A stretch of 48,405 nucleotides of DNA, from the IMG/VR virus record IMGVR_UViG_3300032177_000018, positions 1 to 48,405 of that record. One strand, written 5' to 3'. Positions 11,299-41,400 of the stretch are shown one piece after another; the stretch's first letter is position 1; every line of letters starts with the position of its first letter. The translations under genes were made by a program, and so were the position numbers. A model generated the notes under the pieces. That model was given only the letters and a program-made list of their open reading frames with translations, made no database searches and was not told the DNA's origin. This DNA comes from a virus.

Positions 11299-11838
11299 AT
11301 GGTCGTGGAAGAAGATAAACATTGGCGAGTTTGGGTCATAAAGCGTAACCGTTTTGATTATGTCATAGAATATATTAAAGAATCTGTGCCAGAAGTGGAT
11401 AAGTTCTTTTATCCTTTTATTAAAAAAGAGATACGCACCAGAAGTAGTTCTCGTATTATAGATCGCCCCCTATACGAGGGTTATTTATTTTTACACTATA
11501 ATAATTCCCCAGAAGTATATCACAAACTTCGCGCAAACCCATTTATAATGACATATGCTGGAATGGCTTCCGAGGACGAAATGCTTAGGATGGAGGAGGC
11601 ACAGGGTAAACTTATAAGTGAAGTTAAGGCTAGCCGCTTCGCTATTGGAGATGTTGTTCGTCCCCTCTCGGGTCCTTTTAAAGGGTTCGACGGGAGTATA
11701 GCGGGCATCGAAGGTGGCGCACTTAGTATAGTGATCGCCTTAAAGATACTTGGTCGTGAAAAGCTAGAAATGGTTTTTAGTGAGGATCAGGTAGAAAAGG
11801 TAAATAAATTAGAAAATGCGCGAGTTCAAAATATTTGA
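11299..11838 (+). CDS. nusG: NusG-family transcription elongation factor
   Basis: The protein has an N-terminal NGN-type domain (HWRVWVIKRNRFDYVIEYI, then PLYEGYLFLHY, corresponding to the PGYvfV strand of NusG). A C-terminal KOW domain runs from about residue 115: FAIGDVVRPLSGPFKGFDG followed by the strand ending in VEKVNK. NusG binds the beta' clamp helices and controls pausing and termination, and its KOW domain contacts partners. GGGGG ends directly at the ATG; the GTG two codons later has better spacing and may be the true start. The phage could use it as an antiterminator on host polymerase or with its own polymerase. Confidence 0.85.
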   Translation: MVVEEDKHWRVWVIKRNRFDYVIEYIKESVPEVDKFFYPFIKKEIRTRSSSRIIDRPLYEGYLFLHYNNSPEVYHKLRANPFIMTYAGMASEDEMLRMEEAQGKLISEVKASRFAIGDVVRPLSGPFKGFDGSIAGIEGGALSIVIALKILGREKLEMVFSEDQVEKVNKLENARVQNI

Positions 11839-13005: not shown

Positions 13006-14820
13006 TTGCAAGCAGAGTCTCCTGAATTTCTCAAACAGGCCGACGGTCTGGTTGAGTTTTATCGACAATATCCAGAAATAGCAGCAAAAGACCTTTTAAA
13101 TGTAAAGCTGTCAGATGTTCAGAAGGTTATTCTCCGCGCCATGTGGTTCAAGAAATACGTCATGGCCATTATGAGTCGCGGATCTGGTAAAACTTTTTTG
13201 AATGCGGTAGTTGCCACATTGAAGGCTATGCTTTATCCTGGGTATAGGGTTGGTCTTTTGGCCCCCACCTTTCGTCAGGCCAAGTATATGTTTGATGAGT
13301 GTCATCGACTTTGGCAACTTTCTCCTATTTTACAGGCGGCTACAGAGAAAAAACCAACGGCCGCATCAGATAACTGTTATATTCGCTTTAATACTTCTGG
13401 CGGTAGACCCGGTTCTATTATTCAAGCAATCCCTTTAGGAGACGGTAGTAAGATCAGAGGTTCCCGTTTCTTTACTATTATCTGCGACGAGTTTCCCCAC
13501 ATACCTTCTGATATTTTCAATAGGGTTATTCGTCCTATGGCAGCTACGGTCGCCGATCCGATGGAGAACGTGGAAAGAATTCAGCGCCAAGAAGAGCTGG
13601 TAAAGGCGGGTGTTCTAAAGGAAGAAGAAATAAGCGATGAGAGTGCCAACCAGATCCTTATAACCTCATCCGGATATTTTACCTTCAATCACATTTACCC
13701 CTTGTACTGTATCTACAGAGACCACATGCTGCAGGGGCGAGACGATTACGCTGCCTTTAGAGTTCCATACACCCTACTCCCTAAAGGTTTTTTAGACACC
13801 AAGAACGTAGAGGGTTCTAGACAGGAAATGTCGAGTTTAGAATTCAGAATGGAGTACGGAGCAGAATTCATTCCAGATACAGAGGGCTTCTATAAAGCCT
13901 CCTTATTGGAGAGTTGTAAAAGTAGTACGTTCTCAGTTCAGCTTGCGGGAGACCCTGATAAATCTTATATATTAGGTATTGACCCTGCCCGAACCGAGGA
14001 TGCTTTTGCCATCTGTGTGATTGAACTTGGTAAGCCTTGCCGCATAGTAAACGCGCTAGAGTTCTACAGACAAACCTTTCCGGACATGGCGCGCAAGATA
14101 GAAACACTGTGTATGAACTATAATGTTCAGACAATCTATATGGACTCCCAGGGCGGTGGTCTTTCTATAAAAGATATTTTGGCTGAGAATAATAACAAGC
14201 TTCCTAATGGTCCTATTTTAGATTGCGAAGATGCACTTCATTTACAGAAGAAGGGTAGACACATCCTTAAGCTTTGTAATTTCACACCCGAATGGATTGC
14301 GGATTCTAATTTTGGAGCACTCAGGCTATTAGAAAACAAAGAACTTCTTTTTCCAGAGGTACCCTTTGAAGAGGCAAATGAGCGTTTAGCCCTTGCTTGG
14401 GAAACAGTTAATGCCATGAAAAGCCAGATGCAACTCATTATAGTAAGTGAGACGCCTACGGGTAAGGTTCATTTTGACGTTCCGAAGGGCGGCGGCCATG
14501 GAAAGCAAAAGAAGGACTTATATACCGCCTTTCTAATAGCCTGTCGTGGTGCCTATGACACCCTGTGGGCCGAAGAGGTACCAGTAAACGTTCTTCATCA
14601 CAGCGGCCTTCTTATTCCTAGAGAAGATCGAGGTGTGGGATACACGTTTTCCAATCAGGGCCCTACAGACGAAATGCTTCCGGGTTCTTTACAAGAAAAG
14701 ATGATGCTCATACAGAATCCGGAACAGTATAAAGTTGACTTGCTAAGAAGTATGGCCGGCAGGAGACAGGTTCTAACTAGTCCGTCCGCGGTTCTGAAAC
14801 CTAGGATTAAAGGGAAATAA
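13006..14820 (+). CDS. terL: Terminase large subunit (TTG start)
   Basis: This motor ATPase and nuclease pumps and cuts concatemeric phage DNA at the portal. The 604 residues show Walker A SRGSGKT (K62) and Walker B FFTIICDE (D161, E162). The RNase H-like nuclease carries Asp ligands in GIDPARTEDA (D326), YMDSQGG (D380) and KKDLYTAF (D504). The start is TTG at 13006, three bases after the previous stop, with GGATGGG at ribosome-site distance; the next Met is just before Walker A, too late for a complete ATPase. The portal follows 10 bases after its stop. Confidence 0.95.
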   Translation: MQAESPEFLKQADGLVEFYRQYPEIAAKDLLNVKLSDVQKVILRAMWFKKYVMAIMSRGSGKTFLNAVVATLKAMLYPGYRVGLLAPTFRQAKYMFDECHRLWQLSPILQAATEKKPTAASDNCYIRFNTSGGRPGSIIQAIPLGDGSKIRGSRFFTIICDEFPHIPSDIFNRVIRPMAATVADPMENVERIQRQEELVKAGVLKEEEISDESANQILITSSGYFTFNHIYPLYCIYRDHMLQGRDDYAAFRVPYTLLPKGFLDTKNVEGSRQEMSSLEFRMEYGAEFIPDTEGFYKASLLESCKSSTFSVQLAGDPDKSYILGIDPARTEDAFAICVIELGKPCRIVNALEFYRQTFPDMARKIETLCMNYNVQTIYMDSQGGGLSIKDILAENNNKLPNGPILDCEDALHLQKKGRHILKLCNFTPEWIADSNFGALRLLENKELLFPEVPFEEANERLALAWETVNAMKSQMQLIIVSETPTGKVHFDVPKGGGHGKQKKDLYTAFLIACRGAYDTLWAEEVPVNVLHHSGLLIPREDRGVGYTFSNQGPTDEMLPGSLQEKMMLIQNPEQYKVDLLRSMAGRRQVLTSPSAVLKPRIKGK

Positions 14821-14830
14821 GGGGAATTAG

Positions 14831-16708
14831 ATGACCGAAGATGTTAAAGACACCCTTAATAAAAACTTAAAGAACGCTAAAGTTCTCTCTCATAAAGAAG
14901 TTTCTCCCGGCACACATGAGTTAGAACTTGAGGTCGGTCCCAAAGGCGTACCCGCTAAAGATTTTATGGAAAGTATGCCGAAACAGGAGTTGGCTTATCT
15001 CACAGGTCGCGATGGAGAGTCTTCCCCACTTAAATATCATGAGGGTGGAAGAATAATTTATCGCGACTTTCTACGTAGAGTAGACTTAGACCTTGCGGAG
15101 CCCAGTGTACTTAGAGAGAGGCACGACCGTCTATATCAGCGAGCTCTTGACTACTATAAGACTAAAGGTGCGTATGGTACTATTATTGATACGTTGACCA
15201 ATTTTGCATCTAAAGGTTTTAAGAACGACGTAGACGACGCCGACATTAAACTCTTCTTTGATACGTGGACGGATGACATTGGGTTTCATAGAACCGTAGA
15301 GAATATTTTCTTTGACTTTTTTAGAGTGGGTATGGTTCGTACTCTTAAGATTGTGGGCAAGTTTGACCCTAAGTTAAGACCATCTAGTCTCGCAGCCCCC
15401 GGCTCCTATAAGGCAAAGAGTGGCAACGTTCGCCATATCTTGCAAAGACAAGAGTTCGCGGCGGCTAAAAAAACCTGGTCTAAAACTCATATTCCTCTTC
15501 AGTACACTGTTCTCAACCCGACCCTTATAATTCTAAAAGGGCCGCTTATGTTCGATAAGACGGAGGTCTATCTTCGTCCAGAAGCGTTCTCGGAAATAAA
15601 AGCTCTTTTAAGGCCGGATGCTGAAGTCTCTCCGGAACAGCGGCGGCTACTAAAAGAGCTTCCTGGGCACATGCTTGATGATATCAAGAAAAATCGTCCC
15701 GTTAGACTGCCCCCTGAACTTGTAGGAAAGTGCGACTATCGAAAGCAAGATTACGAGCGTTACCCCATGCCTCGGGTAGTTCGTGCGTTCGACGCCATGG
15801 ATTATAAGGAAGAGTTACAGAAGGCCGACTACTCTACGTTAGACGGCATCACTAACTACATTCTTAAGATCACTATTGGTAATGACGAGCACCCCGTAAC
15901 TAGTCAGGCAGAGTTAGAGGCAATCGCGCGTCTATTCGACGCCACTAGTAAAAGCTTTGATATTATTTGGAATCACACCCTAAAGGTTGAAAAGATTACT
16001 TTTCCAGAGATCAGTCAAATTTTAGGGCAAGACAAGTTTAAGCAGGTTAATGAAGACCTTAGTATGTCCTTCGGTATTCAGCGCGCGTTATTAGACGGAG
16101 AGGGTGGGGGAAATGCCAAGGCTACTGAAATAGGAAGCAAGGCCTTCATCGAAGAAATAAATTATGCGCGCCGCTGTGTATTGGAATGGATTTATAATGA
16201 GTACGAAGAAGTAGCTCTAGGTATGGGATTTGATCGATATCCTACGGTTCGATTCGATGATATGGCCCTTAAGGATGAGATCATGCTTATGTCCATCGTT
16301 CAGGGAATGATGGATCGTCGGGTTATTTCCTATAGAACGGGTATTGAAAAGTTGGGCTTCGATTACGAAACCGAACTTGCTAATATGCAGGCCGAGAAGC
16401 CGCTGGTTGAGTCGGGAGATATTGGTATCATCGGTTCTCCGTACAATCCTAAAGCAATGCCTGCAGCACAAGAGCCTAAGAAGTTGCCTACTACACCAGA
16501 CGGACAGTACGTTGTTGTTACTAAAGACGACCTTACTGACTTCTTAAAGAATAAGTCGATACCAACCAATACTAATGTTCAACCAGTTCAGCGAACACCC
16601 GTTGGGACGCCCAGTGAAGGGCGCCCACGAAAGGGCGGCGGTAAGTCCAGAAAGAAGTCGACTAAACCCGTTTTGCCCGAGCCTCGTAAGCCTAAAACAG
16701 GCATCTAG
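14831..16708 (+). CDS. Portal protein
   Basis: Position after terL, length of 625 residues and the sequence pattern fit the dodecameric portal that forms the DNA channel. An early helical region contains YYKTKGAYGTIIDTLTNF. A wing or stem contains DYKEELQKADYSTLDGITNYI, a stem-type motif followed by the crown-like stretch LRDALLDGEGG-type (here GIQRALLDGEGGGNAKA). The C-terminal 80 residues are Pro- and Lys-rich and probably flexible. The ribosome site GGGGA lies close to the ATG. The next gene encodes a head protein typical of this position. Confidence 0.85.
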   Translation: MTEDVKDTLNKNLKNAKVLSHKEVSPGTHELELEVGPKGVPAKDFMESMPKQELAYLTGRDGESSPLKYHEGGRIIYRDFLRRVDLDLAEPSVLRERHDRLYQRALDYYKTKGAYGTIIDTLTNFASKGFKNDVDDADIKLFFDTWTDDIGFHRTVENIFFDFFRVGMVRTLKIVGKFDPKLRPSSLAAPGSYKAKSGNVRHILQRQEFAAAKKTWSKTHIPLQYTVLNPTLIILKGPLMFDKTEVYLRPEAFSEIKALLRPDAEVSPEQRRLLKELPGHMLDDIKKNRPVRLPPELVGKCDYRKQDYERYPMPRVVRAFDAMDYKEELQKADYSTLDGITNYILKITIGNDEHPVTSQAELEAIARLFDATSKSFDIIWNHTLKVEKITFPEISQILGQDKFKQVNEDLSMSFGIQRALLDGEGGGNAKATEIGSKAFIEEINYARRCVLEWIYNEYEEVALGMGFDRYPTVRFDDMALKDEIMLMSIVQGMMDRRVISYRTGIEKLGFDYETELANMQAEKPLVESGDIGIIGSPYNPKAMPAAQEPKKLPTTPDGQYVVVTKDDLTDFLKNKSIPTNTNVQPVQRTPVGTPSEGRPRKGGGKSRKKSTKPVLPEPRKPKTGI

Positions 16709-16735: not shown

Positions 16736-19414
16736 ATGGTTAATAAAACTGATAAGAAGGGTGGGTCCGAAGACCTATCGGAGAAGACAAAGGCTGCGAC
16801 GCTTGCTTCTGATTTTAAATCTTTCAATAAAGCGCTTAAGGACTTTGCCATAACCGTCGGCGAGCCTTGTCCCGAGGGGCATCGAAAAGATCCACGCAGC
16901 GGAGCGTGTCTTCCGATAGGTGGTCAGGACCACACGGCGTTTACCAGAAGTGTTAATAATGATTACGGCCCAGAGTGGAGAGGAGAGGTTACGAAACCAA
17001 ACCTAACTTTTGATAGTCAGAATAAAGCGGCCACTAAAGAAGTGGCTCTAGACGCGGACCTCATGGATGATCGCGATAGTTGTACGGAAGGAAATACTTT
17101 CTCTTTCTTAAAGCGTATTTGTGTAAGTATGGAAGAGGCAGAAGCAGAAGACAACGACCAATATGAGTATAGCGAAGAAGCGGATACCTTAACCCCCTCG
17201 GAAGAGCCGCGAATGAAACAGCCGGAAGGACGTAGAGATACGCCCAACCACGAGTGTCCTCCGGACCATGTGTTTGACTATAAGCGAAGAAAGTGTATCC
17301 CGCTCAACAAAGACACAGTGCTTAAGGATGGAAATACTACCCCTGATACCATGGGCGACGCGGTCATGTGTGGTAAGGAAGAGCGTATCGCAGCAATAGC
17401 ACATATGAACGGAGTTGCCAAGACCGGAAGAGATCCTCTTGACGGGCATGTTCACTTCGTGACTGTAGATGGAGAGGGTAATGGTACGACAGCCGTTGCC
17501 GATGGTTATTGTGGTGGGAAGTCTTACCCGCACAGCCACCCTGTAAAAGGTTATGAAGTGCAGGAGTGGGAAAGTGAGGACGGTGATTGTATCTCTCGTC
17601 ATTTCGGAATGATTAATCCTCAGGATATGGAAGATGACGATGACGATGAGGAGACGGAACTATCTATAGCCAACCCTCAAGAAAATGTATTAAATGACTC
17701 TGGCGTGCCCGATCCCATGGGAGACGGTTGCCATGGAAATCCTCAAGGGGATATGGGTCCCGGAACGTACGATGAGTATGACCGCTTTACGGTAATGACC
17801 CAGCCCGATAACTATATAGACTCATACCCTGTTTTTGGCGGCGTCGTGCAGGCCAAACAACAGGAATATACGGAGCGAGCCGGTCTAAAGGCGAATGACT
17901 TCGGAGTACCCGGGAAGAGAAAGTTTCCGCTTCACGACGCCAACCATGTAATGAACGCTATGGCCAGATTTACGCAGGCCGATGACCTCTCTCCCGAAGA
18001 GACTAGTATTCTGAAGAAAAAGATTATTTCTCGGGCCAAGGCTTGTGATATAAAGGTCTCTAAGTTTGCCCAGGCGGAACTTCCATCTGAATACGCAGAA
18101 GTAGCGGTTGAGATGTTTCAGATTCTAGCCAATTTAGAACAGGCGGCTAAGATAAAGACTAGCCAAAGAAACGCCCTGCCTAATAGCGCGTTTGGTGTTC
18201 CAGGAAAGAGAAAGTTCCCACTGGACACGTGTGGTAGAGTTCGTAATGCCATGGCCAGATTTAATCAGGCTAAAGGCCTAAGTTCAACAGAAAAAGCAAC
18301 GCTTAGGAGAAAGATTTTAGCGCGTGCGCACGCATGCGGCATCGAAGTAAAAAAGTTTGGTAAAGCCTCTACGGATATGGAATTCGCAGAGGTACTTAAG
18401 GAGCTCATAGCAATGGAAGCACCAAAGATCAGTGAAAGAAATATCGTAGAGGATTACGCTGCTGAGACTAAGAAGAAGGGCCCGTGCCCTCCAGGAATGG
18501 AGTGGGATCCCAAGGCTAAGAAGTGCGGCAAGATGATGGGCTTCTTTAAGCACGTTACTCAGGCTGATGCTCTTAAGACCTCTGAAGAGCCCCGCATGTT
18601 ACAGCCGGAAGGAAGGAGAGACACTGTTAATCACGCGTGCCCTCCCAACCACCTATTTGATTATAAGCGCAGAAAGTGCATTCCGCTCAACAAAGACACA
18701 GTACTAAAGGGTACCGATACCGCGCCTGATACTATGGGTGACGCGGTGATGAAGGGTTCCACTGAAGAAGGACAGCAAAGAGTTCTTACTCCTAGCCCAA
18801 AGGGTAAACCAGACAAGATTTCTCAGGACTGCCCAAAGGGAACTATCTGGCAACAGTGGACGCAGAAGTGCATCCCTCTAGACCCACGGAAGAAAATAGC
18901 CAGTGAGGAGGCTGATTTCGACGCCAAGAATAGAGAAGGTTTAGTAGACGCACCTGCGGGTAAGGTTAAGACCCCGTACGATTGTCCGGCAGGAACGATG
19001 TGGGATGGTAAACTTAAAGTTTGCAAGCCCCTAGATCCCGCGGATAAGATTCGCGACGGCGGAAAGGACCTAGACCCTAAGGATTTTGCTGGCTTCTCTG
19101 TAAACAAAGTAATCTCTGAGTTGGATAAGGTTATCACTTCGGAAAATATGAAGGCTTCCGGAAGTACGGTAGTTGCTAAGGATCTTCCTAATGCAGCTTT
19201 CCCACCTTCCTTAGTGAGTTCAACTAAGAGAAGCCTAATGCATCACACGGCCGAAGCTACAGATCCCTATGATACTACGTCGGTAGACATCGTGCGTTTG
19301 CGCAATGCCTTAGCGCGTATTTCTACGGTAGAAGAATTTTCTTCTAAGGCCGTAGAAGATGCGCTTGAGCATTTGCTCTTCCATGCACGAGAGGTGCTTA
19401 ACGTAAAAAAATAG
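16736..19414 (+). CDS. Large modular Cys-rich minor head protein
   Basis: The 892 residues are a mosaic of short domains joined by acidic linkers. At least six Cys modules follow the form CPxGxxWDxxxxxCxPLD. A His-rich segment near residues 235-275 (DGHVHFVTVD, YPHSHPVKGY) looks metal-binding. Two copies of a DUF6582-like domain starting FGVPGKRKFPL lie near residues 388 and 485. A 55-residue block with EPRMxQPEGRRDT and FDYKRRKCIPLN is duplicated near residues 155 and 615. Such domains are often attached to head proteins next to the portal. The frame ends at A_AAA_AAA-TAG and may continue by frameshift into Dps. Confidence 0.7.
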   Translation: MVNKTDKKGGSEDLSEKTKAATLASDFKSFNKALKDFAITVGEPCPEGHRKDPRSGACLPIGGQDHTAFTRSVNNDYGPEWRGEVTKPNLTFDSQNKAATKEVALDADLMDDRDSCTEGNTFSFLKRICVSMEEAEAEDNDQYEYSEEADTLTPSEEPRMKQPEGRRDTPNHECPPDHVFDYKRRKCIPLNKDTVLKDGNTTPDTMGDAVMCGKEERIAAIAHMNGVAKTGRDPLDGHVHFVTVDGEGNGTTAVADGYCGGKSYPHSHPVKGYEVQEWESEDGDCISRHFGMINPQDMEDDDDDEETELSIANPQENVLNDSGVPDPMGDGCHGNPQGDMGPGTYDEYDRFTVMTQPDNYIDSYPVFGGVVQAKQQEYTERAGLKANDFGVPGKRKFPLHDANHVMNAMARFTQADDLSPEETSILKKKIISRAKACDIKVSKFAQAELPSEYAEVAVEMFQILANLEQAAKIKTSQRNALPNSAFGVPGKRKFPLDTCGRVRNAMARFNQAKGLSSTEKATLRRKILARAHACGIEVKKFGKASTDMEFAEVLKELIAMEAPKISERNIVEDYAAETKKKGPCPPGMEWDPKAKKCGKMMGFFKHVTQADALKTSEEPRMLQPEGRRDTVNHACPPNHLFDYKRRKCIPLNKDTVLKGTDTAPDTMGDAVMKGSTEEGQQRVLTPSPKGKPDKISQDCPKGTIWQQWTQKCIPLDPRKKIASEEADFDAKNREGLVDAPAGKVKTPYDCPAGTMWDGKLKVCKPLDPADKIRDGGKDLDPKDFAGFSVNKVISELDKVITSENMKASGSTVVAKDLPNAAFPPSLVSSTKRSLMHHTAEATDPYDTTSVDIVRLRNALARISTVEEFSSKAVEDALEHLLFHAREVLNVKK
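19405..19411 (+). other. Candidate -1 frameshift heptamer A_AAA_AAA
   Basis: Frame-0 codons are GTA AAA AAA TAG, so the seven A are in exact slippery phase with the stop next. Slipping -1 opens a frame of 249 codons from 19411 to the Dps stop at 20160. The first part of that frame encodes a Cys module like those upstream (HPNCRPEEEFDPKSGACVP, then FQCLPGFVP, then LCVPESP). No stimulatory structure was proven. Confidence 0.6.
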
Positions 19415-19647
19415 GTAACCCTCTACGAGGCGCGGAAGGTGACGGGGTTGTTGACCCTAAGGAGTTTCACCCCAATTGTCGACCGGAAGAGGAGTTTGAC
19501 CCTAAATCCGGAGCGTGCGTCCCTCGTAAGGGTACCCCTATAGGGACTTTTCAATGTTTGCCCGGATTTGTTCCCGCCCCAAATAAAGAGTGGCTTTGTG
19601 TGCCGGAGAGTCCGATGAGTCAGGCGCATATAAAAGGAGAGGCAGTC
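19415..19647 (+). other. Protein-like -1 frame between head protein and Dps
   Basis: This 233-base stretch has no gene in the usual sense. In the -1 frame it continues the Cys-rich style of the preceding protein without a stop and runs straight into Dps. A TTG at 19558 and an ATG at 19615 are in that frame but lack ribosome sites. It is either translated after frameshifting or is a decayed end of the head gene. Confidence 0.55.
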
Positions 19648-20160
19648 ATGATAGATTCTACTAACAAAGATAAGGCTTTTTTTCTTCCGGATGAAGATAG
19701 AGATGCTCTCGCCGTTGAGCTTTCCGGGCTGATGGGTGATCTTTTTGTTTTTACTACTAAGATGTATAACTTCCATTGGAACGTTACTGGAAATACTTTC
19801 CAGATGCTGCATGCCATGTTTCAGGCAAACTACGAGGGCTCCCGAGACTTACTTGACGACGTAGCAGAGCGTGTTCGTGCTCTTGGTTATTCTACGCCAA
19901 CTACTAGTTCTCAGCTTGTTTCTTTGGCTTCTCTTAAAGAGCAGCCCGGACTATTAGACTGGAGAGCCATGGTGCAGGAAACCGTTGCCGACCACGAAGC
20001 CTCTGCAAAGAGAATGAACAGCCTTACTATTTTGGCAGACAAACTAGGCGATCAGGCTACGGTTGATCTTTTAGGGGCCGCGGCGCTTCATGAAGATAAA
20101 AGAGCATGGTTGTTTAGAAGTATTCTTCTTTCTGGGCCGCAAGCGGCAGTAAGTGCTTAG
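19648..20160 (+). CDS. dps: Dps-family ferritin-like protein
   Basis: Dps proteins form 12-subunit shells that bind DNA, oxidise Fe(II) with peroxide and store iron. The 170-residue length is normal. Residues 38-80 hold the ferroxidase signature: FHWNVTG (H43), MLH (H55), then DDVAERVRALG (D70, E74). These match E. coli H51, H63, D78 and E82 in spacing. The position of E. coli D67 is Q59 here, a changed iron ligand. AGGAGAG lies six bases before the ATG at 19648, so free Dps should be made, but the frame also joins the head protein's -1 frame. It could protect packaged DNA or be a virion component. Confidence 0.88.
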   Translation: MIDSTNKDKAFFLPDEDRDALAVELSGLMGDLFVFTTKMYNFHWNVTGNTFQMLHAMFQANYEGSRDLLDDVAERVRALGYSTPTTSSQLVSLASLKEQPGLLDWRAMVQETVADHEASAKRMNSLTILADKLGDQATVDLLGAAALHEDKRAWLFRSILLSGPQAAVSA

Positions 20161-20187: not shown

Positions 20188-20532
20188 ATGTGGTCTGTTA
20201 TACAGGAGATACTACAACACTACGATTTGATTGGGCTCTTGGTTTTTATAGAGGCGGCTATTATTTTTTGGCTTTATAAAAAGGGTGATACTAAAGAGAA
20301 TGAGTGTACTAAATGTAGAATAGAGTTTCAAGAGACTCTGACTAAGCTTGGTGAAAAGAGATTAGAAGACGCAAATAAGAGATTAGAAGATAGTATAGAA
20401 GATCGAGAGCGGTACGAAGATTTAGCTAAAGAGTTAACCTCTAATATAAGTATTCTTATAGCCTCTCTTATTAAGAAAGATAATGAGCTTCTTATGAGTA
20501 CACTACGTAAGAAAGAAAATAAAGATTCTTAG
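20188..20532 (+). CDS. Membrane-anchored coiled-coil protein, possibly holin-like
   Basis: One strong membrane helix spans residues 13-30 (DLIGLLVFIEAAIIFWLY). A Lys flank, two Cys and a long charged coiled coil to residue 95 follow. This layout occurs in UviB/BhlA-type holins and in spanin or tail-anchor proteins; no lysin gene is in the window to decide. GGAGATACTACAA occurs before the start and again 33 bases downstream inside the gene, each a possible ribosome site. Confidence 0.65.
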   Translation: MWSVIQEILQHYDLIGLLVFIEAAIIFWLYKKGDTKENECTKCRIEFQETLTKLGEKRLEDANKRLEDSIEDRERYEDLAKELTSNISILIASLIKKDNELLMSTLRKKENKDS

Positions 20533-20544
20533 GAGGATCTACTT

Positions 20545-20763
20545 ATGCCTGTACTTTCTAAAAAATCCGCTACTGCATCAAGGGTAGAGGAGGGAATTAG
20601 ATTTAATGAGATAGAGGATGAAGTTAGAGCTATCGAGGGCAAAGTAGAGGAAGAGAGAGATAAGGTGCGTCAGCGCCGTCAGACTTCTAAAGCAAAGTTA
20701 GAAGAACTTAAACAAGTTCTTTTCGAACAAACGCAAAAGGAGGCTCCAGAAAATGGCCGATAA
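20545..20763 (+). CDS. Short coiled-coil protein
   Basis: AGGAGGA precedes the ATG. The 72 residues are one charged helix with heptad spacing (IEDEVRAIEGKVEEERDKV). The end overlaps the protease start by 11 bases and contains its AAGGAGG ribosome site. It may assist prohead assembly; no family is recognised. Confidence 0.62.
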   Translation: MPVLSKKSATASRVEEGIRFNEIEDEVRAIEGKVEEERDKVRQRRQTSKAKLEELKQVLFEQTQKEAPENGR

Positions 20764-22144
20764 CAATAGGATTTTTGTAGAGGCACCCATAATTGTTGTA
20801 GAGCGTGTCTCTAGTGGGGCCCAAGAGAAAGCCTCCATTCTTGCCTTTCCTGATGAGAAGCAACAGGACCTTCAGTATATTCGTTCTATTTTGGTTTCGG
20901 CGGGGACTAATAAAAATGGGGCACACTTCCTACCCTCCGAGATGCTTAAGGCTCACAATACGGTAGTGAATAAGGCCATAGACATAGAGCATGAAGAGTC
21001 TAAAGTTATCGGGCACATTTACGAATGCGCCTTTCTGCATAAGAACGGGGACTCCTTTGATCCGATGGCCATTATAAAAGAATACGAGGCTGCCGGAAGA
21101 AACCTTGATGAAAATTTAGATACGGATATCGCAGTCGCTGGAGTTATTCATAAGATGCGGTTCCCCGAGATAGCTGATGAAATTTCTGCTGGGGAATGGA
21201 AAGTTAGTATGGAATGCTACTTTCGTGACTTTGATATCAGAATTGGTAATTCTATAATTAGTAGAAATGAAGCAATGGCCCTAGGGTATGATCCCGACCT
21301 GCTTGTACGAGGTTTTGTAAAGTTGAAAGCCGGTAGTAAGGAACTGGGCATGCATCACGTCGCCAGAGTATTAAGAGACATCACTTTCAGTGGCATGGGT
21401 ATAGTTAAAAACCCAGCCAACCCCCACTCTATAATTTTGGAAACAGCCGCGCATAAAGAGGCGATGGAAAAGAATACCATCGAGGTTGATTTAGAAAGGA
21501 TAGATAACTTGCGTGGGCATAAACTAGAAATTTCTAGCAAAGGAGAAACCCAGGTTGTGGAAAACGAAGAAAAATCGGATAATTTAGTAAAGGCCACTCC
21601 CTTCTCTGGAGATGCTTGCGCCGATGCCCTCTATATAGAGGTAGATAAAGAAACCGGCGGTATCAAGAGAATTCTCTCCTCTAACAAAGAAGAAGGTGCT
21701 ATTCGCTTCTCTGGTCCAGGCGTAAAGGGTCCCGGAACAATGAGTAGCTGGCCCGACGATATATGTAAGAGTTTCAAGAAACGGCATACTAAGTTCAATG
21801 CCCTCGATCAGTCCGAGGCTCAGGTTCTTCACGAGCACTGGTGCGCCCTTTTTGAAGAGGGCTGCCCTGTTATTGGCGCGTCTGCTAAGGCGCCGGAGTG
21901 TTTGAGAAATACCAAGAATCAGGTGACTCGCGACCCTGTGGATACAACAATTACGAAGACGGTTAGAGAGCATCTTGAGGGTCCAGGTAATACTAACGTT
22001 ACTACTTTACAGGTTCCGTTACTTACACACACTGCTAAAGTACAAGAGCGTAAAGATGAGATTACCCGACTTAAGAGTTCGGCTGTAGATCTTCGAAGTT
22101 CTTTAAGAGACTACGTAGCCGTTGAAAAAAAAACTTCAAAATAG
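20753..22144 (+). CDS. Prohead maturation protease
   Basis: This serine protease should cleave scaffold and capsid proteins inside the prohead. The catalytic His lies in IDIEHEESKVIGHI (H80), and the Ser in WKVSMECYF (S152). The 72-residue spacing and SME context match HK97-type and herpesvirus-like prohead proteases. FSGMGIVKNPANP follows near residue 222, as is usual. At 463 residues it is about twice the usual size. The extra C-terminal half (residues 240-463) carries a small Cys domain (SWPDDICKSFKKRH, then HEHWCALFEEGCP) and a charged end. It stops just after A9 and may be extended by a -1 frameshift. Confidence 0.85.
   Translation: MADNNRIFVEAPIIVVERVSSGAQEKASILAFPDEKQQDLQYIRSILVSAGTNKNGAHFLPSEMLKAHNTVVNKAIDIEHEESKVIGHIYECAFLHKNGDSFDPMAIIKEYEAAGRNLDENLDTDIAVAGVIHKMRFPEIADEISAGEWKVSMECYFRDFDIRIGNSIISRNEAMALGYDPDLLVRGFVKLKAGSKELGMHHVARVLRDITFSGMGIVKNPANPHSIILETAAHKEAMEKNTIEVDLERIDNLRGHKLEISSKGETQVVENEEKSDNLVKATPFSGDACADALYIEVDKETGGIKRILSSNKEEGAIRFSGPGVKGPGTMSSWPDDICKSFKKRHTKFNALDQSEAQVLHEHWCALFEEGCPVIGASAKAPECLRNTKNQVTRDPVDTTITKTVREHLEGPGNTNVTTLQVPLLTHTAKVQERKDEITRLKSSAVDLRSSLRDYVAVEKKTSK
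22125..22133 (+). other. Candidate -1 frameshift run of nine A
   Basis: Frame-0 codons are GAA AAA AAA ACT TCA AAA TAG. The in-phase heptamer A_AAA_AAA (22126-22132) lies three codons before the stop. Slipping -1 gives a frame of about 113 residues ending at 22473. It is the second such arrangement in under 3 kb. Confidence 0.5.
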
Positions 22145-22239
22145 TTAGTTGGCCGACCGAGTCCGTTTCCGTACTTATTTCGGAAGGTGGAAAAGAACGG
22201 CTGGTAAAAAGATTTAAGAGTAAGATAGAAGCCTTTGCG

Positions 22240-22473
22240 GTGGCAAAAGAACTACAGCCCACCGCAGAGCGAGAAAAAGAAGAAGGTTTTATTCTTCTTG
22301 TGGGCCCTCTCCCTCAGATTATCGAAGGAGTAGGCGATCGGGACAGGGCAATGAAGACTGCAGTAAAAATCCTCGAGGAAAATGACACTGTGGTTTTTGT
22401 TTCTAAGGTGCTATCCCGGATAGGTAATGCACGTGTACTAAAAAATCAATTGATTTTTGCCAGAAAGAATTAA
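22240..22473 (+). CDS. Hypothetical basic protein or protease extension
   Basis: The first usable start is GTG 22240, which has no ribosome site. The frame is open and protein-like upstream to 22124, just before the A-run, including SVSVLISEGGKERLVKRF. It ends with the well-formed segment EEGFILLVGPLPQIIEGVG. It therefore looks more like the -1 extension of the protease than a separate gene, or a gene with a non-standard start. The 77-residue form is given as the minimum. No family is recognised. Confidence 0.5.
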   Translation: MAKELQPTAEREKEEGFILLVGPLPQIIEGVGDRDRAMKTAVKILEENDTVVFVSKVLSRIGNARVLKNQLIFARKN

Positions 22474-22497: not shown

Positions 22498-22698
22498 ATG
22501 GCTAAGCCAGATCTAGAGAAAATGTTTGTAACGCCCAGTGGACAGGCTATGCGAGATGACGGCATGGGTTCCCTCATGTTGGCTTTTAAGAATTTACCGC
22601 GTTATAGCAATTCCACAACGGCCGCGGCTGGCGGAGTTCCGGTTGGTGGTTTATATGTAATAACCACCACTAGCGGGCTAGCAATGCGCCTGGTCTAA
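22498..22698 (+). CDS. Small virion-type protein, paralogue 1 of 3
   Basis: The 66 residues share MAKPDLE, a TxSGQAMRDDGMGS block and a VPVGGLYVITTTS end with the next two genes. The VGGLY ending is common in short phage structural proteins and fibre N-termini. AAGGAGGAAAA precedes the ATG. Position between protease and scaffold suggests a minor capsid or head-decoration part; paralogy suggests mixed oligomers. Confidence 0.7.
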   Translation: MAKPDLEKMFVTPSGQAMRDDGMGSLMLAFKNLPRYSNSTTAAAGGVPVGGLYVITTTSGLAMRLV

Positions 22699-22707
22699 AT
22701 TTTTTCA

Positions 22708-22734
22708 GGTAGTAACGGGAACTCCGTTATTACC
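22708..22734 (+). terminator. Hairpin after paralogue 1
   Basis: GGTAGTAACGG (22708-22718) pairs with CCGTTATTACC (22724-22734) over a five-base loop, with one G.T pair. Six T precede it. A near copy follows paralogue 3 at 23219-23246. It may be a terminator, an RNase site or part of the unit that was duplicated. Confidence 0.6.
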
Positions 22735-22763
22735 ACAACTTTTAGAAGGAGGAAAAAGTAACT

Positions 22764-22964
22764 GTGGCGAAACCAGACCTAGAGAGAGTGTATGTCACTG
22801 CCAGTGGGCAGGCTATGCGAGACGATGGTATGGGTTCTCTTTCACTAGCTTTTTCTAATTTACCGCTCTGCGCCGACGATACGGCCGCGGCAATTCTAGG
22901 TATACCTGTTGGTGGTATTTATGTACTAACGAGTACCGCCGCCATAACACGGCGTATAATTTAA
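22764..22964 (+). CDS. Small virion-type protein, paralogue 2 of 3
   Basis: A GTG start follows AAGGAGGAAAA; all 66 residues align to paralogue 1 without gaps, with most changes in the middle. The stop is followed by paralogue 3 after one base. Like its neighbours it ends in VGGIYVLTSTA. Confidence 0.68.
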   Translation: MAKPDLERVYVTASGQAMRDDGMGSLSLAFSNLPLCADDTAAAILGIPVGGIYVLTSTAAITRRII

Positions 22965-22965
22965 A

Positions 22966-23187
22966 ATGGCTAAATCAGACATAGAGAGAATGTATGTCAC
23001 AACCAGTGGGCAAGTTATGCACGAATATGGCATTGGCCCATTCGTAATGGCTTTTGCTAACTTGCCGGTCTGTGCTAACGACGCGGCTGCGGAAGCGGTC
23101 GGAGTGGCTATCGGTGGTCTTTATATATTAGAGAGCACTGCTGCCCTAACAAGGCGCCCGGGTGGCGGTCTTGTTCCGCCAATATAA
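22966..23187 (+). CDS. Small virion-type protein, paralogue 3 of 3
   Basis: The 73 residues align to the two preceding genes but add a Gly/Pro tail (PGGGLVPPI). It has no ribosome site of its own and depends on coupling to paralogue 2. The D-D-G block is changed to HEYGIGP, so it is the most diverged copy. Confidence 0.65.
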   Translation: MAKSDIERMYVTTSGQVMHEYGIGPFVMAFANLPVCANDAAAEAVGVAIGGLYILESTAALTRRPGGGLVPPI

Positions 23188-24334: not shown

Positions 24335-24835
24335 ATGGTGTTTATACCCCGAGCCCCCGTAGTTCAGAATCAGTTTCTTACTCATGATTCGACTAAGGGC
24401 TCTACCGCTACTGCCGGTGCTGTTGTTTCTCTTTCCGGCGATGAGCTTGTTCAAGTAGTTAGTGGTACCAACACATTACCTTATGGGTTCCTTATGCAGA
24501 ACGTTAAGGCAGAATCCTCTGCTCACCCGACCGGTTTCCGGCTTCCGGGCGACTTAGGCTCTTCCGATGCGTTCACTGGTGACCCTGTAGGTGTTGCACA
24601 TCTTGGTATCTACGACACTACAAATTACAATACTTCAACTACGTTTGCCGCTGGCGATAAGCTTGGCGTTATGGCTACTGGAAAGCTAACTGTTCTTGGT
24701 GTAAATAGTCTTGACTATGATTCCAAGAACGGTGTAGACTCTGCAGAAGCTAACGTTGTTGCTATTGCACAGAATACCCTAGACGCGACTGCCGTTGCCG
24801 CTGGGGCGAAGCTTAGAATTAAGCTTCTCATATAG
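24335..24835 (+). CDS. Capsid decoration or stabilisation protein
   Basis: The 166 residues start with a flexible arm (PRAPVVQNQFLTHDSTKG). A beta-barrel-like body follows, with GAVVSLSGDELVQVVSG, YGFLMQNVKAESS and DKLGVMATGKLTVLGV. It matches the style and position of lambda gpD-like and other capsid decoration proteins immediately before the major capsid gene. AAGGAGG precedes the ATG. Trimer or dimer placement on the shell is inferred. Confidence 0.75.
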   Translation: MVFIPRAPVVQNQFLTHDSTKGSTATAGAVVSLSGDELVQVVSGTNTLPYGFLMQNVKAESSAHPTGFRLPGDLGSSDAFTGDPVGVAHLGIYDTTNYNTSTTFAAGDKLGVMATGKLTVLGVNSLDYDSKNGVDSAEANVVAIAQNTLDATAVAAGAKLRIKLLI

Positions 24836-24872
24836 CCTAGCAAAGGCCAATCTAAAAGGAGGATCTATTAAT

Positions 24873-25937
24873 ATGGATAGAACGAAGCTTGCGGAACTGT
24901 TCAGGGCAACAGCCGCAATCGATACTCCTGAAGGTATGGAAGCATACAAAGCCTTTGCACAGGCTTTGACTATTCCTATCCTACAGGAAATCCGCGATGC
25001 GTCTATTATGCGTCAGTTGTTCTCTGTTGAACGACTAGCGCCGGGTGCACAGGCGGTTTACCCCGTAGCCGATGACTTCGAAGTGCCGGTTTTCGTACTT
25101 CCTGGTCTTGGTTACATTGCTCAGAATTTCGTCGAAGGCGTTGGCGAAGAAGTATATGTTCCTACCTTCTCTATCAGCGTTTCCGCCGATTGGAAAGTGA
25201 CTTACGCAAGAGATTCTCGTATCGACATCCCGGAGCGTGCTGCTAGAAATGCGGCTCGTGCCATTGCCGAATACGAGGAAGAGTCTGGATGGAGAGTTAT
25301 TGTTCCTGGTGCTACCACGAACTTCTCTGGCCAGGGTCTGCTCGGCGCGCGAAATGCCCCTGTATATCAGGTTGCTGCTGGTTCTACTGGCGAGAAATTC
25401 CTTTCTAAGGAACTTCTAAACCTTATGCTCGTTGGCTTTAAGCATCTTCGCCGATCCTTGACCGATCTTTATATCTCTCCGGAAGACGCTGCCGATATTC
25501 GTGAATGGACTGAGACTCAGATCGACCCAATTACTCGTCGCGAGATTTTCCAAGCGGCAGGTCTTGGTAAGGTTTGGGGTATTAACATTCATGAGGTTTA
25601 TCAGCTAGGCGCCACTGGTAGATTCAACATCAACCAGTCCGGTGCTGCTTACGGTGTGTTCCAGGTTAGCGGTGGATCATTTAATAACTACACCCCAACT
25701 CACGTTAACAACGTTAACGCGAACGGTGCGGTTACACAGGCCGGCGAAACCCAGATTTACGGTTTCGACCTATCTGTTAATGACTCTCTCGTTATGCCAG
25801 TCCGTAAGGAATTCGAAGCACACGATGACCCGACTCTTCTCCGACAGCAGAAGCAAGGCTTCTTCGGTTGGGAGGAAGTTGGTTTCGCGTTGCTCGACTC
25901 TCGTATGGTTGGTATGGGCGTCATTGACCGATTCTAA
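24873..25937 (+). CDS. Major capsid protein (HK97 fold)
   Basis: AAGGAGGA lies before the ATG at 24873; the in-frame GTG or other start at 24795 would overlap the decoration gene without a ribosome site and is rejected. The 354 residues fit an HK97-type subunit. An N-arm (RTKLAELFRATAA) leads to the early E-loop-like region and a long spine-type helix near residues 120-140 (PERAARNAARAIAEYEEE). The A- and P-domain strands end in EVGFALLDSRMVGMGVIDRF. Codon use is less AT-rich, as expected for the most highly made protein. A hairpin follows the stop. Confidence 0.9.
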   Translation: MDRTKLAELFRATAAIDTPEGMEAYKAFAQALTIPILQEIRDASIMRQLFSVERLAPGAQAVYPVADDFEVPVFVLPGLGYIAQNFVEGVGEEVYVPTFSISVSADWKVTYARDSRIDIPERAARNAARAIAEYEEESGWRVIVPGATTNFSGQGLLGARNAPVYQVAAGSTGEKFLSKELLNLMLVGFKHLRRSLTDLYISPEDAADIREWTETQIDPITRREIFQAAGLGKVWGINIHEVYQLGATGRFNINQSGAAYGVFQVSGGSFNNYTPTHVNNVNANGAVTQAGETQIYGFDLSVNDSLVMPVRKEFEAHDDPTLLRQQKQGFFGWEEVGFALLDSRMVGMGVIDRF

Positions 25938-35482: not shown

Positions 35483-38400
35483 TTGATAGACGAGTCCTTC
35501 AAGGTTGGGATTAGTCTCGAAGTCGAGCAATCTAGCCTTGAAAGTATTACCACACAGTTTAAGCAGGCATTAAATACTGCTTTAGCACAAGCTGCCAGCG
35601 GGATTAAGCCGTCTCGCCAGGCTTTAACACAGGCATTGCCTTCTCCAGCCACGGTGCGCAGCGCATCGGTGGCTACAGGTGTTTCTGGGAACGAGGTTGC
35701 TAAAGCAGTTGCGGCCGCGCTGAAGGCAGAACTGTCCCCTCTTGCGCAGGCAATTCAAAAATTAGCAGCGGCGGTAGATAAGAATAGTTCTAAAGCCGCG
35801 GAGACTGCCAAAGTAGTGAAAGCTGCCGCCCCTGTGCAGGCGGCTGCACCTATAAAATCATTTTATAATTTACCTACACTTGCAGATTTTCGTGCTAGAC
35901 AAGCTGGTGCTGCGGTACCTGTTACTTCTAGACCTGCACCTCCTGTTGCGGCTACGCCGCCTCTTTCTCCTCCTGTTAAGAGAGAAACTTCTAAGGAGAA
36001 GAATGTTAGGGAGATGCGTGAGAAAGCAGCTGAAGCAGAGCTTAAAGTAGCGCGTAATAGGATAGCTGCTGCAGAAGCTGAGCAAGCGGTCATAAAGAGT
36101 ACACTTTCCAAACCCGCTCCCGCGGTTATTGCTCCCGCACCCAAAGCCGTAGTTCCTCCTAAGCCTGCTGCACCCAGGTATCCTTCTCCCCAATACGACG
36201 TCGCTAACCAATCGACTCAGGTTTATAAGTATCCTACCGAAGTTCAGGATCCTGCGGGATATGCTGAGACTAGGAAGATGCTTGCAGATAGGGCCAAAGG
36301 CATACGTACTAGGCAACCTCAAAGATATGCCCCCAACGAACAACGAGATGTAGTTTATAATTATGAGAACGAGATTAAACGTAAGTCATCTAGTTCCACC
36401 ACCTCTTCGATGGCACAGGCTATTAAAAACTTAAATGTTTCGCAGGGACGCGGAGCAGCTATTCCTCCTATTCCCAGTTCTCTTCCTCCGGGAGGTAGGC
36501 TTCCTCCTTCTCTTGGAGCTAGCCACACGGAGATTGCTGGTACTATAGAGGCTATAAAAACAGCACTTAAGACGGCTCTTGGTTCTACTGTTAGTGGTAA
36601 GGGTATTTATAATAAACTTAACTTGCCGGCTATCTCCGAAGACCCAGGACTTAGAGGGGCTCCCGGTATTTCTTCCGGTGCAGGTATCGTACGGGTGGTC
36701 ACCAGAGATATTGAAGTTTTTGGAGGAAAGGTTGTTAAAGTAGCTAATAAACTGGAGGGTATACTTACTGAGCTAAACAGAGTTAAACCCGGAAAAGATG
36801 AGCGTAGTGTTCTGCAGCGTGCCGCTGAAGGAGGTGTATTCCGTCCAGCACAGGCAGTTTCTCAATTACAGAAAGTAATAAATACTGTAGTTGCAGAGTT
36901 ACCTGCGCATGAAGAAAACAAGGGTATGGCTTCTACAGAGAAAAGTGGAGAAGCAACGGTTCATTTTAAACCTACTGAAGAGCAGTTTGAGCATCTTAAA
37001 AAATTAGAAGAAGAACGTCTACAAATTATTCAGGTGGTCAGATGGCTAGGAGAACTTAATTCAAAGTTAAAAGAGTTGGGGGTAGAAACGGCTACTCTCG
37101 TAGGACTATCTGAGGGTTCTGTAGGTAAGGCAAAGTTTCCTAAAATAACTGATGAGATGAAGGCTAGTGAGTATAAGGCGGAACTGCCTGTTCAGACTAT
37201 ACCGTTTGCAGGCGCAGGGCATCTTGGATCTGGGGCTATAAATCCCGCAAGATCTTTTCAACCAACACAGGTAAGGGAAATGCTCGAGGGAACAGCCCCT
37301 AGAGTCATGGGTACTCGAGAGCGTTCTCTAATGGAGTCTGGAAATATAAGTTCTAAGCAAGGAAGAGAATTACGTACGGCCTTTGTAGATATGCCGGATG
37401 TTACAGAAGATATGATTTTGATATTAAAGTCTGCGGCTAAGAATATGAGTATTTTAAAGACAGAGACACTGGTCTTAAAAGAGGTTACTGAGGGTGTTGT
37501 CGAAGGTATGACCCTTACGCATAAGCAGTTTATGGGTAAGGGTTTTAAGGACGAGGACGTTGCCTTTGATTTAAAGGGTACCGCAGCCAAAGTAAAAAGT
37601 ATTTCTAAGCGTATCGAGGATGGGATAGACGTCTTAGCGGTTACCGTGGAACAGACTATGCCAATGACTACGGGCAGTAAAGTTAATACGCGGGGAGGTA
37701 TTAAGGGTGTAGTACGTTTAGAAGAGAATCTGGGTAAAGACAAAAGGGGTAGGCCTATAGAAGCAGTGCTGGGGCAGCGGGGGGCGATGAAGCGGCAGAG
37801 TATACGAGATTTTAGTGAGGCTATGACTAATGAAATGGCTGATGCGGCTAAAGTTTCTTCTGCTAAAGTAGCTGAGATGATGGAACACGCTATGGTAAAG
37901 GCAGGTATGAGCCTTAGTCAAGCAATAGAGAGTGTATCTAAGGAACTAGGACTTAAAGGTTTTACGGGGATGTCTACAGTTAAAGGCGGAGTATTAGGTA
38001 GGGGAGCCCCCGAGGGTCGAAGTATAATGGTTGGCGGGGTGCATATCGGCTCTCTTGGTGAGGGTAAGGAAAAGGGAATGCTGATGCAAGAGAAGAGGTT
38101 TATATCCTCCTCGGATCGTGCTTCCCTAGTAACTGCTTATGGCGCAGAATCGGCTATGGCTAGGCAACTAGATACACAGCACAAGAAATTAATTGCGACG
38201 TATTCTGATTTAATTACAGAGTTACGAGCTTTAGACGGAAGTTTAGATGTAACTAAAGAAGGGTTAAAAGAAGTTCTGCCCGGGGAAATAGCCCCTCTTC
38301 CTCACGGTACCCAGCCTCCAGAAGCCTACGCTGGTACACTTTTAGATGCTGAAAAGTATAAGAAGGCTTTTACAATGCCACTTAGAAGTCCAACGGGTAC

Positions 38401-41400
38401 CACTGAGCAATTTAGGGTCCCGGCTATAGGGACACCTGGGGGTAGAGACAAGTTTGAAAAAGATACTACCGGGGCTATAGGGGTTGGGAAACTTACACGC
38501 GAACTGGAACACCTTAGAGTTGCGGCGGCTCACCTATCTTTAACGTTAGATGGGTTAGATACAACTAGTAAGGAGAGTTTAGATGAGGCCACTCATCAGA
38601 TAAACCAAGCCGTTAACGCGCAGGTTGCCAGTATTAGAAAGCTAGCACAAACAAATCCCACAGAGGCAGGTACACAAGCGAAAGTATTTAATGAAAAGAT
38701 GATGTCCTTAGTACACGGTGAGGGGTCTACAGCCTCTTTGCAATACAAGTTTAAGGGAAAAGTTACAAACTATCCGGAGAAGACGGCAGAATCTTATATA
38801 AATAAAAACGAAGACCCTATGCATCGGATGCTTCGTTTGCGGGATGTTCTCGTTAAGCGTCCTGGGCAGGACAAACCTATTGGTGGCTATCAAGCTCTGG
38901 CTTCTACTGGTCAACTTTTTGATCCAGAGACGCCAAATAGAGTAGCACGGCTTCAAAAAGCATTAAAACTATTTGGTGTTGAATTATCCGGGGATACAGA
39001 GAAGATTGCTGCTGCTTATAAAGCACAACAAGCAGCGCGTGAGAGTTATATTAAGAAGCTTCTTCAAACAGCTGTAGAAGGACCGGGTACGGGTAATGCT
39101 AGAAGTCTTTCGGCAGCTAAGCAGGGTTCTACTTCTATTTCCCCTTACGGCAGTGTTGTAAGTTATCCTGCGGAAAGAATGGAAGGCCTGGCCGCGGCAG
39201 AAACAGAGTTAAAAAAATTAGGTGCTGCCGGGCAAGACGTGGGGGAATCTTTATCTCTTATAGGAGAAGCTCGGGCTATACAGCCTGAAAAAACAATGAA
39301 GCGGGGTGAGATCGGGATGCACACGGGGGATGTGCGTTCCTGGGCGACGTCGGTGTCTAAAGAAACAGGGAGGGGGGTAGCGGAAGAGATGAAGCGTCTT
39401 CTTACCGAAGATGTTTCTACTCATAGGTATCCTACTACGGGGTCTGCTAGTTTCGTTTCTGCCAGAATAAAGACTACCGAGGATGAGAGTCTACGTGGTA
39501 AATTTGCTGTACCTACGGTACCCACGCTTCTTTCTAAAGAGAAAGAGGAGAAGATGCGTGCACCTCTGGAAGCAGAAAAAGCAAGACTTTTGAACCAGGT
39601 TCGCGGAGCAGGGGGAGCGTCATCTCCGGAGGTTCGTAAGAATATACGTGATTTAGAAGTAGCATTAGATGGTCTTCGTTCGAACTTTGCGCACGCATCT
39701 CAGAATCTAGATTTGGATGGGGATGCTATAGTTTTGCACGCGGGGCTAACTAAAGAAGTATCTGCCGAGATGTCTAATCTTAGACGAGTACTACAACAAG
39801 ATTCTTATAGCATTGGGGGAATTTTAGGAAGACTTAGAGATAAATTAGAAGAGTCTATTGTTTCTATAAGTCCTAAAGAGTTAGATGTACGGATGAAGGA
39901 AGTTGCTGGGGCTAAAGGAAGAAAGTACGCGGCAGGAGAATTGGGTACTACGTTGCGTCCGAGTCAGGGCCCAGCAGAAGCCGAAGCTTCCCAAAAACTG
40001 ATTTCTCCTAAACTATCTACGGGGTTAGCTACCTCTAGTTATGTTCAGCTCGAGACATTGACTGCCAAAACTCTGAGAGGGAGTGAGCATTTTGCGTCTG
40101 GTCTAACCCATATAATGCTTAATATAAACCAGGCGCTAGCTACAAAGCATGGTGGAGCTGATATAAAACTTTCGGATATGCCTGCTTTTAAATTTCTTGA
40201 GCATCTCGGTAAGATGGGGGGTGTAGAAACTATTATTAAAGGTATGGGTAAAGGTGGAGAATTTGAGAAGTTAGGAAAGGAAAATGATGCATTAATGTCT
40301 AAGCGCCGAGAATTTTATGAGTCTATGGATCCGGCAAAGTTATCTAAAGTTGTGGGTAAGCCAATTACTACAGGGAAAGGAGGAAATTGGAAAGCCGAGA
40401 TAGAGAAGCAAGTTCAGAAGGAGTCTTTTCCTACTTTTCTACATAAAATACAGGAAGTATTAATTCAAGAATCAATAAAAGCCCTACAGCGGGGCAAAAG
40501 TATGTCGCAGACAGACGCTGAAAAAGAAGTTAGGCGACAGATGTCGGGGCCAAGGGGCTTAAATTTAAATGCGGCAGAGTCTATTCTACACCCAGATGTA
40601 TATGCTACAAGGAAACGTGGGGTTAGGGCTTCAGAAGCGCTACCGTTAGAGGCACGCCTTAGAAAGACCGTAGAACGATTACCTAACGATACTTTTCAGT
40701 TCTCAGATGAGGGTGGAGATGCCGCTGCTAGTAAAATAGCTAAGAGTTTACACGCCGGTCTGACTAAATATATAAATTCTTTTAAAGACAAAATACGAGT
40801 ACATACTCTGGCAGACTTTGAGGCGCAGTTTCCCCAGATGGCTGGGCAGGGTCCGGCCCCACTGGGTATAACTAAAAAAACTAAACAGGGCGGTGCTATT
40901 TCTTTGTCGGCGGAAGGCATACTGGCACCGATAGAGAAGGTTTTTGCTCAATTAGAGCAAATGGGACGGGGAGAATTAGCAGCAACACCTGAATTACTTA
41001 ATGAGATGTCTGCGGCTATTATGAAGCTTACCGGAACACTTACGCACGAGAATCTTCATGCTTTGATGAACAAGGGTGCCATTGAGCCTCTCGAGGAACT
41101 TAAATTAATTTTGAGAGATAGTTCTACGCCGGGTGTAAGGGAGTTACGCTCTAGGTTAGATGAGAAACGTATTGTTAAAGCAAAGGCCGCGGGGGTCGGG
41201 CTAATGCGTGATGCCCTGCAGGCCGGGGAAGAAACGGTTGCGCTTACACCGGGGAGTAAGGCCAAAACTAAGGTTTCTGCTAAAGCTCTAAAGAAATTGA
41301 ATGACATCTATATAGATAGTATGGCACAGGAGGCTTTAGCTCCTGCAGCACAAAAGCCACAGCTTGATAAGTTGTTAAAAGGTTTACCTGATGCACTTCA

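Follow-up and report, generated by a model that had tools for sequence, protein, structure and literature searches.

Frameshift extension of capsid and tail proteins is established in phages, and some of the extended forms are components of the virion (PMC5009743, PMC7881722). Examples include 10A/10B of T7, T3, Lactobacillus phage A2, the Listeria phages PSA, A118 and A500, phiEco32, SU10 and Privateer. The known extensions of phage structural proteins are mostly Ig-like or unnamed domains. Cassettes of the dnaX type combine an A_AAA_AAN heptamer with an adjacent 0-frame stop, an upstream Shine-Dalgarno-like element and a downstream stem. Dps-family proteins have been detected by mass spectrometry in purified virions of SU10 (PMC4281155) and of Privateer (PMC7881722). 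For the free Dps of 'Gratiaviridae' and of Lactobacillus phages, a role in iron handling and against oxidative stress has been proposed (PMC8008677); unlike the case reported here, the available part of that account describes no fusion of these proteins to a large protein.

The locus described here lies in a linear virus record of 48,405 bases, which was analysed over its whole length (the window). It resembles the frameshift-extended capsid and tail proteins in that the gene probably belongs to a structural module, the shift site lies near its end, and a major short and a minor long product are predicted. Unlike in those systems, the gene is adjacent to the portal gene and encodes neither a major capsid nor a tail protein, and a conserved -1 site is also present in the gene that follows. 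The extension comprises a Cys module followed by a KMERC/AICR domain or by Dps, and not an Ig-like domain. The heptamer, the adjacent stop, the Shine-Dalgarno-like element that the window has about 10 nt upstream and a stem in relatives are shared with the dnaX-type cassette, although the Shine-Dalgarno-like element is not significant here. Whereas the Dps of SU10 and Privateer was reported as the product of a separate gene, the Dps described here shares a frame with a larger phage protein, to which a predicted frameshift joins it in two lineages and an in-frame insertion in a third. An earlier interpretation of the same DNA (the sequence-only reading) knew of no Dps attached to a virion in this way. 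Since free virion Dps is known from SU10 and Privateer, the novelty narrows to covalent, frameshift-set attachment; a literature search of incomplete coverage turned up no account of a Dps that is linked, through frameshifting or in any other way, to a large phage protein.

The 892-aa protein and its shift site

In the window, the terminase and portal genes are followed by the 892-aa ORF and Dps. Next come a small ORF, a conserved gene at the place usual for the protease, and the genes for a scaffold-like and the major capsid protein (Table 1). A gene for a NusG/RfaH-like transcription factor lies 5' of the terminase gene (11299-11838). In relatives, too, the 892-aa gene comes after the portal gene and before the protease-slot, scaffold-like and major capsid genes. 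Its product is composed of CBM_14-like Cys modules, two DUF6582 domains and a DGHxH/HSH region, and ends in a conserved helical domain. The predicted model is poor (pLDDT 51, pTM 0.23) and resembles beads on a string. Apart from the DUF6582 and CBM_14-like modules there was no family match, and none to a virion protein; a profile of the protein found no credible relative in the PDB, no relatives were found among annotated phages, and a literature search found no paper on DUF6582. The sequence-only reading had spoken of a head protein lying next to packaged DNA. Both descriptions derive from gene order and are not retained as stated; by its position, the protein is probably structural and part of the head module, and may be located in the virion.

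Table 1. Features of the head-module region in the window (positions in the 48,405-base record).
Feature	Position	Strand	Remark
Terminase large subunit	13006..14820	+	Head module
Portal protein	14831..16708	+	phrog_2739; upstream neighbour of the 892-aa ORF
0-frame product, 892 aa	16736..19411	+	Beads-on-a-string protein
Shine-Dalgarno-like GAGAGG	19389..19394	+	10 nt upstream of heptamer; possible dnaX-type stimulator
Slippery heptamer A_AAA_AAA	19405..19411	+	In phase for -1 tandem slip
0-frame stop TAG	19412..19414	+	Directly 3' of heptamer
-1 extension, Cys module	19411..19647	+	79 codons before Dps ATG
Dps ribosome-binding site AAAGGAGA	19633..19640	+	Seven nt upstream of ATG 19648
Dps domain/gene, 170 aa	19648..20160	+	In frame with -1 extension
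Small ORF, membrane-like start	20188-20532		Between Dps and protease-slot gene
Conserved head-module gene, usual protease slot	20753..22144	+	Ends in second -1 site
Second slippery heptamer A_AAA_AAA	22126..22132	+	3 codons before 0-frame stop
Second -1 extension	22132..22473	+	113 aa plus stop
Major capsid protein	24795..25937	+	Head module

The ORF at 16736-19414 (892 codons) ends GTA AAA AAA TAG. From 19411 the -1 frame runs open through 249 codons to the stop ending at 20160, and encodes a Cys module (HPNCRPEEEFDPKSGACVP...C...C) and then Dps. The first ATG, GTG or TTG of this frame is the TTG at 19558, and the Cys module starts 5' of it. The slippery phase of the A7 run, the stop-free -1 frame, its in-frame entry into Dps at ATG 19648 and the ribosome-binding site and ATG of Dps itself had all been described in the sequence-only reading and were confirmed. 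The proposed likeness of the Cys module to those upstream is, in the window, one of pattern (E 0.03); the corresponding module of locus L012 scores above the Pfam cut-off for CBM_14, a family that the main protein matches too.

Conservation of the site in relatives

The extension and the C-terminal domain of the 892-aa protein served as queries in scans of viral and genome contigs, which yielded 22 homologous loci besides the window; a few are near-copies and about 20 are distinct. The only match from the genome contigs was L065 (WJJK01000045.1), a contig labelled as a Candidatus Altiarchaeales MAG that carries the full head module of the phage group. Conservation of phase in relatives had been named as a check in the sequence-only reading, and it was found throughout: in 23/23 loci (22 relatives and the window) 0-1 codon separates the end of a canonical in-phase heptamer from the 0-frame stop, and a Cys-module extension occupies the -1 frame in 22/22 loci that reach far enough. 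The heptamers used are A_AAA_AAA, G_GGA_AAA, A_AAA_AAT or A_AAA_AAG, and in L025, L026 and L065 G_GGA_AAA overlaps with A_AAA_AAT or A_AAA_AAG. In the ORFs of these loci, the background frequency of such heptamers averages 0.27% per codon. The Lys codon of the shift site is AAA, yet nearly all of these genes favour AAG; the gene of L027 has no further AAA Lys codon in about 800 codons. The extension evolves under purifying selection, with dN/dS of about 0.09-0.29 among the pairs listed.

Many relatives possess a 9-11-bp stem that starts about 6 nt after the heptamer. Against dinucleotide shuffles, its z-score is -3.5 in L026, -3.6 in L039 and -5.7 in L065, and the stem of L043 is strong too (z -3.3); in the window, downstream folding is not significant (z +0.7). 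Compared with shuffles preserving the protein of the -1 frame, downstream folding has a mean z of -1.5 over 19 loci, with -2.7 for G_GGA_AAA sites versus -0.7 for A_AAA_AAA sites. The p value (0.0006) is only indicative because the loci are related. Stronger folding behind G_GGA_AAA is what would be expected if less slippery sites depended on stronger stimulators. Pairing in the downstream stem amounts to 86-88%, and to 29-54% when the stem is slid. Covariation in the stem is weak and shuffles often reach the same scores, so the support for the stem is thermodynamic and not covariational. The GAGAGG of the window did not stand out significantly from synonymous shuffles (fraction 0.11), and a Shine-Dalgarno stimulator was rejected as a family-wide feature, as it was not significant across the locus set.

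On the strength of the conserved heptamer, phase and -1 product, the codon choice and the downstream stems of relatives, the frameshift proposed in the sequence-only reading is strongly supported, and the site is, by its sequence pattern, a conserved programmed -1 frameshift at which slippage is predicted. Three other origins of the -1 product were weighed. One ORF could have been split by an error in the homopolymer or by a recent indel, and homopolymers are error-prone; the same frame break nevertheless recurs, in many samples, in all other loci that reach the site, where the heptamers differ and the adjacent stops are conserved. Chance and read error are excluded by the constancy of heptamer position, phase and -1 product throughout the loci, and hardly any credence is left for this explanation. 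Separate translation of the extension, through reinitiation or a non-standard start after the 0-frame stop, is very improbable. The stop and the extension do adjoin, but in most loci no ATG, GTG or TTG precedes the Cys module in its frame, for which reason its separate initiation was rejected for those loci, and codon choice conserves the heptamer. Polymerase slippage can be caused by an A7 run, so that transcription rather than the ribosome might produce the -1 form, and the window is without a clear downstream stem. This too appears improbable, given that many relatives use G_GGA_AAA, several of them with A runs of only four or five, and that the downstream RNA stems are stronger at those sites.

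Dps and its attachment

The window protein is Dps by sequence and by fold match (Pfam Ferritin, 1.4e-18; PDB Dps profile, 2.4e-44; Foldseek, 2.7e-10), and its assembly into a dodecamer and its oxidation of iron are predicted. The inter-subunit ferroxidase ligands of Dps have a canonical H, H, D, E spacing, and the corresponding positions H43, H55, D70 and E74 (numbered in the alignment from ATG 19648) do not vary among the first five domains to be aligned, which include both of L014. The extension would be a complete enzyme-cage subunit with its iron-binding residues kept. Its own ribosome-binding site and ATG suggest that free Dps can be made in the window too, and the fusion there may be incidental.

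In most relatives, the extension consists of the Cys module and a KMERC...SAIAICRSRL domain, which is probably the ancestral arrangement; in L031, L035 and L039 it ends at or soon after the Cys module. The KMERC/AICR domain is missing from the window and from L027, where the -1 frame runs on into Dps. A single-sequence scan with the Dps extension of the window gave no relatives. Stops in the relatives' -1 frame had been named in the sequence-only reading as evidence against the fusion: the frame is conserved in all loci that reach it, but in most the extension ends before any Dps, which makes the Dps part lineage-specific. What is conserved across the group is the frameshift with the Cys module, not the Dps fusion. 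The fusion itself draws support from the frame of the window, from a second case in L027 and from an in-frame pair of Dps domains in L014; relatives in general do not fuse Dps.

In L027, no start codon occurs from the middle of the Cys module to the inside of the first Dps helix, so Dps would hardly be made there except as a frameshift fusion; the linker before it is lysine-rich. In the portal tree the window and L027 belong to different branches, both well supported, which implies either two gains of Dps or one gain and several losses, and the L027 fusion is apparently independent of that in the window. A free Dps gene lies directly downstream in L002, L003, L026 and L065, and L002, the nearest relative, combines a separate Dps with an intact extension terminus. 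In L014 (4196-6109, on a contig that ends inside the gene), two tandem Dps domains are in frame inside the portal-adjacent 0-frame protein, where they follow an upstream Cys module and apparently replace the DGHxH/HSH region. Across 13 records searched, Dps was either at the locus of the 892-aa protein or absent; records with Dps, among them a 296-kb contig, have it in a single place each.

The explanation that we favour, with a probability of about 0.7, is a programmed -1 shift that yields a minor Dps-bearing form and thereby a tethered Dps dodecamer. Most ribosomes would stop at TAG 19412 to give the 892-aa protein, and some, probably a minority, would slip back one base on A_AAA_AAA to give a minor form of 1141 aa, made up in the window lineage of the 892 aa, the Cys module and Dps. 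A few fusion subunits may then co-assemble with free subunits into a mixed Dps dodecamer, which the fused subunits would tether to the structure of the 892-aa protein, probably in the head or portal region. Dps anchored in this way could keep iron and peroxide off the packaged DNA. A bolder version is held tentatively, at somewhat less than an even chance: the frameshift would fix a small number of Dps-bearing portal-adjacent virion proteins that anchor Dps cages beside the packaged DNA, and lineages would have recruited Dps independently into a virion-borne antioxidant and DNA-protection module.

It is also conceivable, though unlikely, that the shift is real but serves the Cys module only, the stop of the window's extension having been lost by deletion while Dps is free and cytoplasmic. 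The good ribosome-binding site and ATG of the window's Dps are in keeping with this, as are the separate Dps of L002 behind an intact terminus and the three loci whose extension closes at or soon after the end of the Cys module. It accounts poorly for the same fusion on a separate branch without a start for free Dps (L027), for Dps in frame inside the protein of L014, and for the confinement of Dps to this one locus in the records searched. That Dps has repeatedly become joined to the same protein speaks most strongly for a joint function. If the fusion is present in the virion, the particle would contain covalently anchored Dps at a copy number set by frameshifting, and the reason for which phages carry Dps becomes open to direct test.

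The neighbouring gene and the phage group

The protease-slot gene at 20753-22144 ends GAA AAA AAA ACT TCA AAA TAG. Every relative that reaches this point has A_AAA_AAA 2-3 codons before the stop, and the -1 extensions that follow are about 105-117 aa long and 41-61% identical to that of the window. In most loci no start codon lies near the beginning of this second extension, for which no significant Pfam or PHROG match was found. By sequence, then, two neighbouring head-module genes in this group have universal -1 sites. Gene callers miss conserved coding sequence here, as both extensions mostly lack a start of their own.

Further observations concern the remainder of the record and the group. 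After the second extension, three similar short ORFs stand in a row (22498-23186; starts AKPDLE... / AKSDIE...); read by eye, they resemble tandem duplicates, each about 55-70 aa long. Two relatives, L025 and L040, lie in contigs of 295,848 and 297,725 bases, so that this uncultivated group probably consists of jumbo phages; Dps is at the locus of the 892-aa protein in one of the two, and none was found anywhere in the contig of the other. The ORF at 35483-48403 is open for 4307 codons and runs off the end of the window; it contains a TP901-type tape-measure domain (TIGR01760, 8.9e-40), which implies a very long tail.
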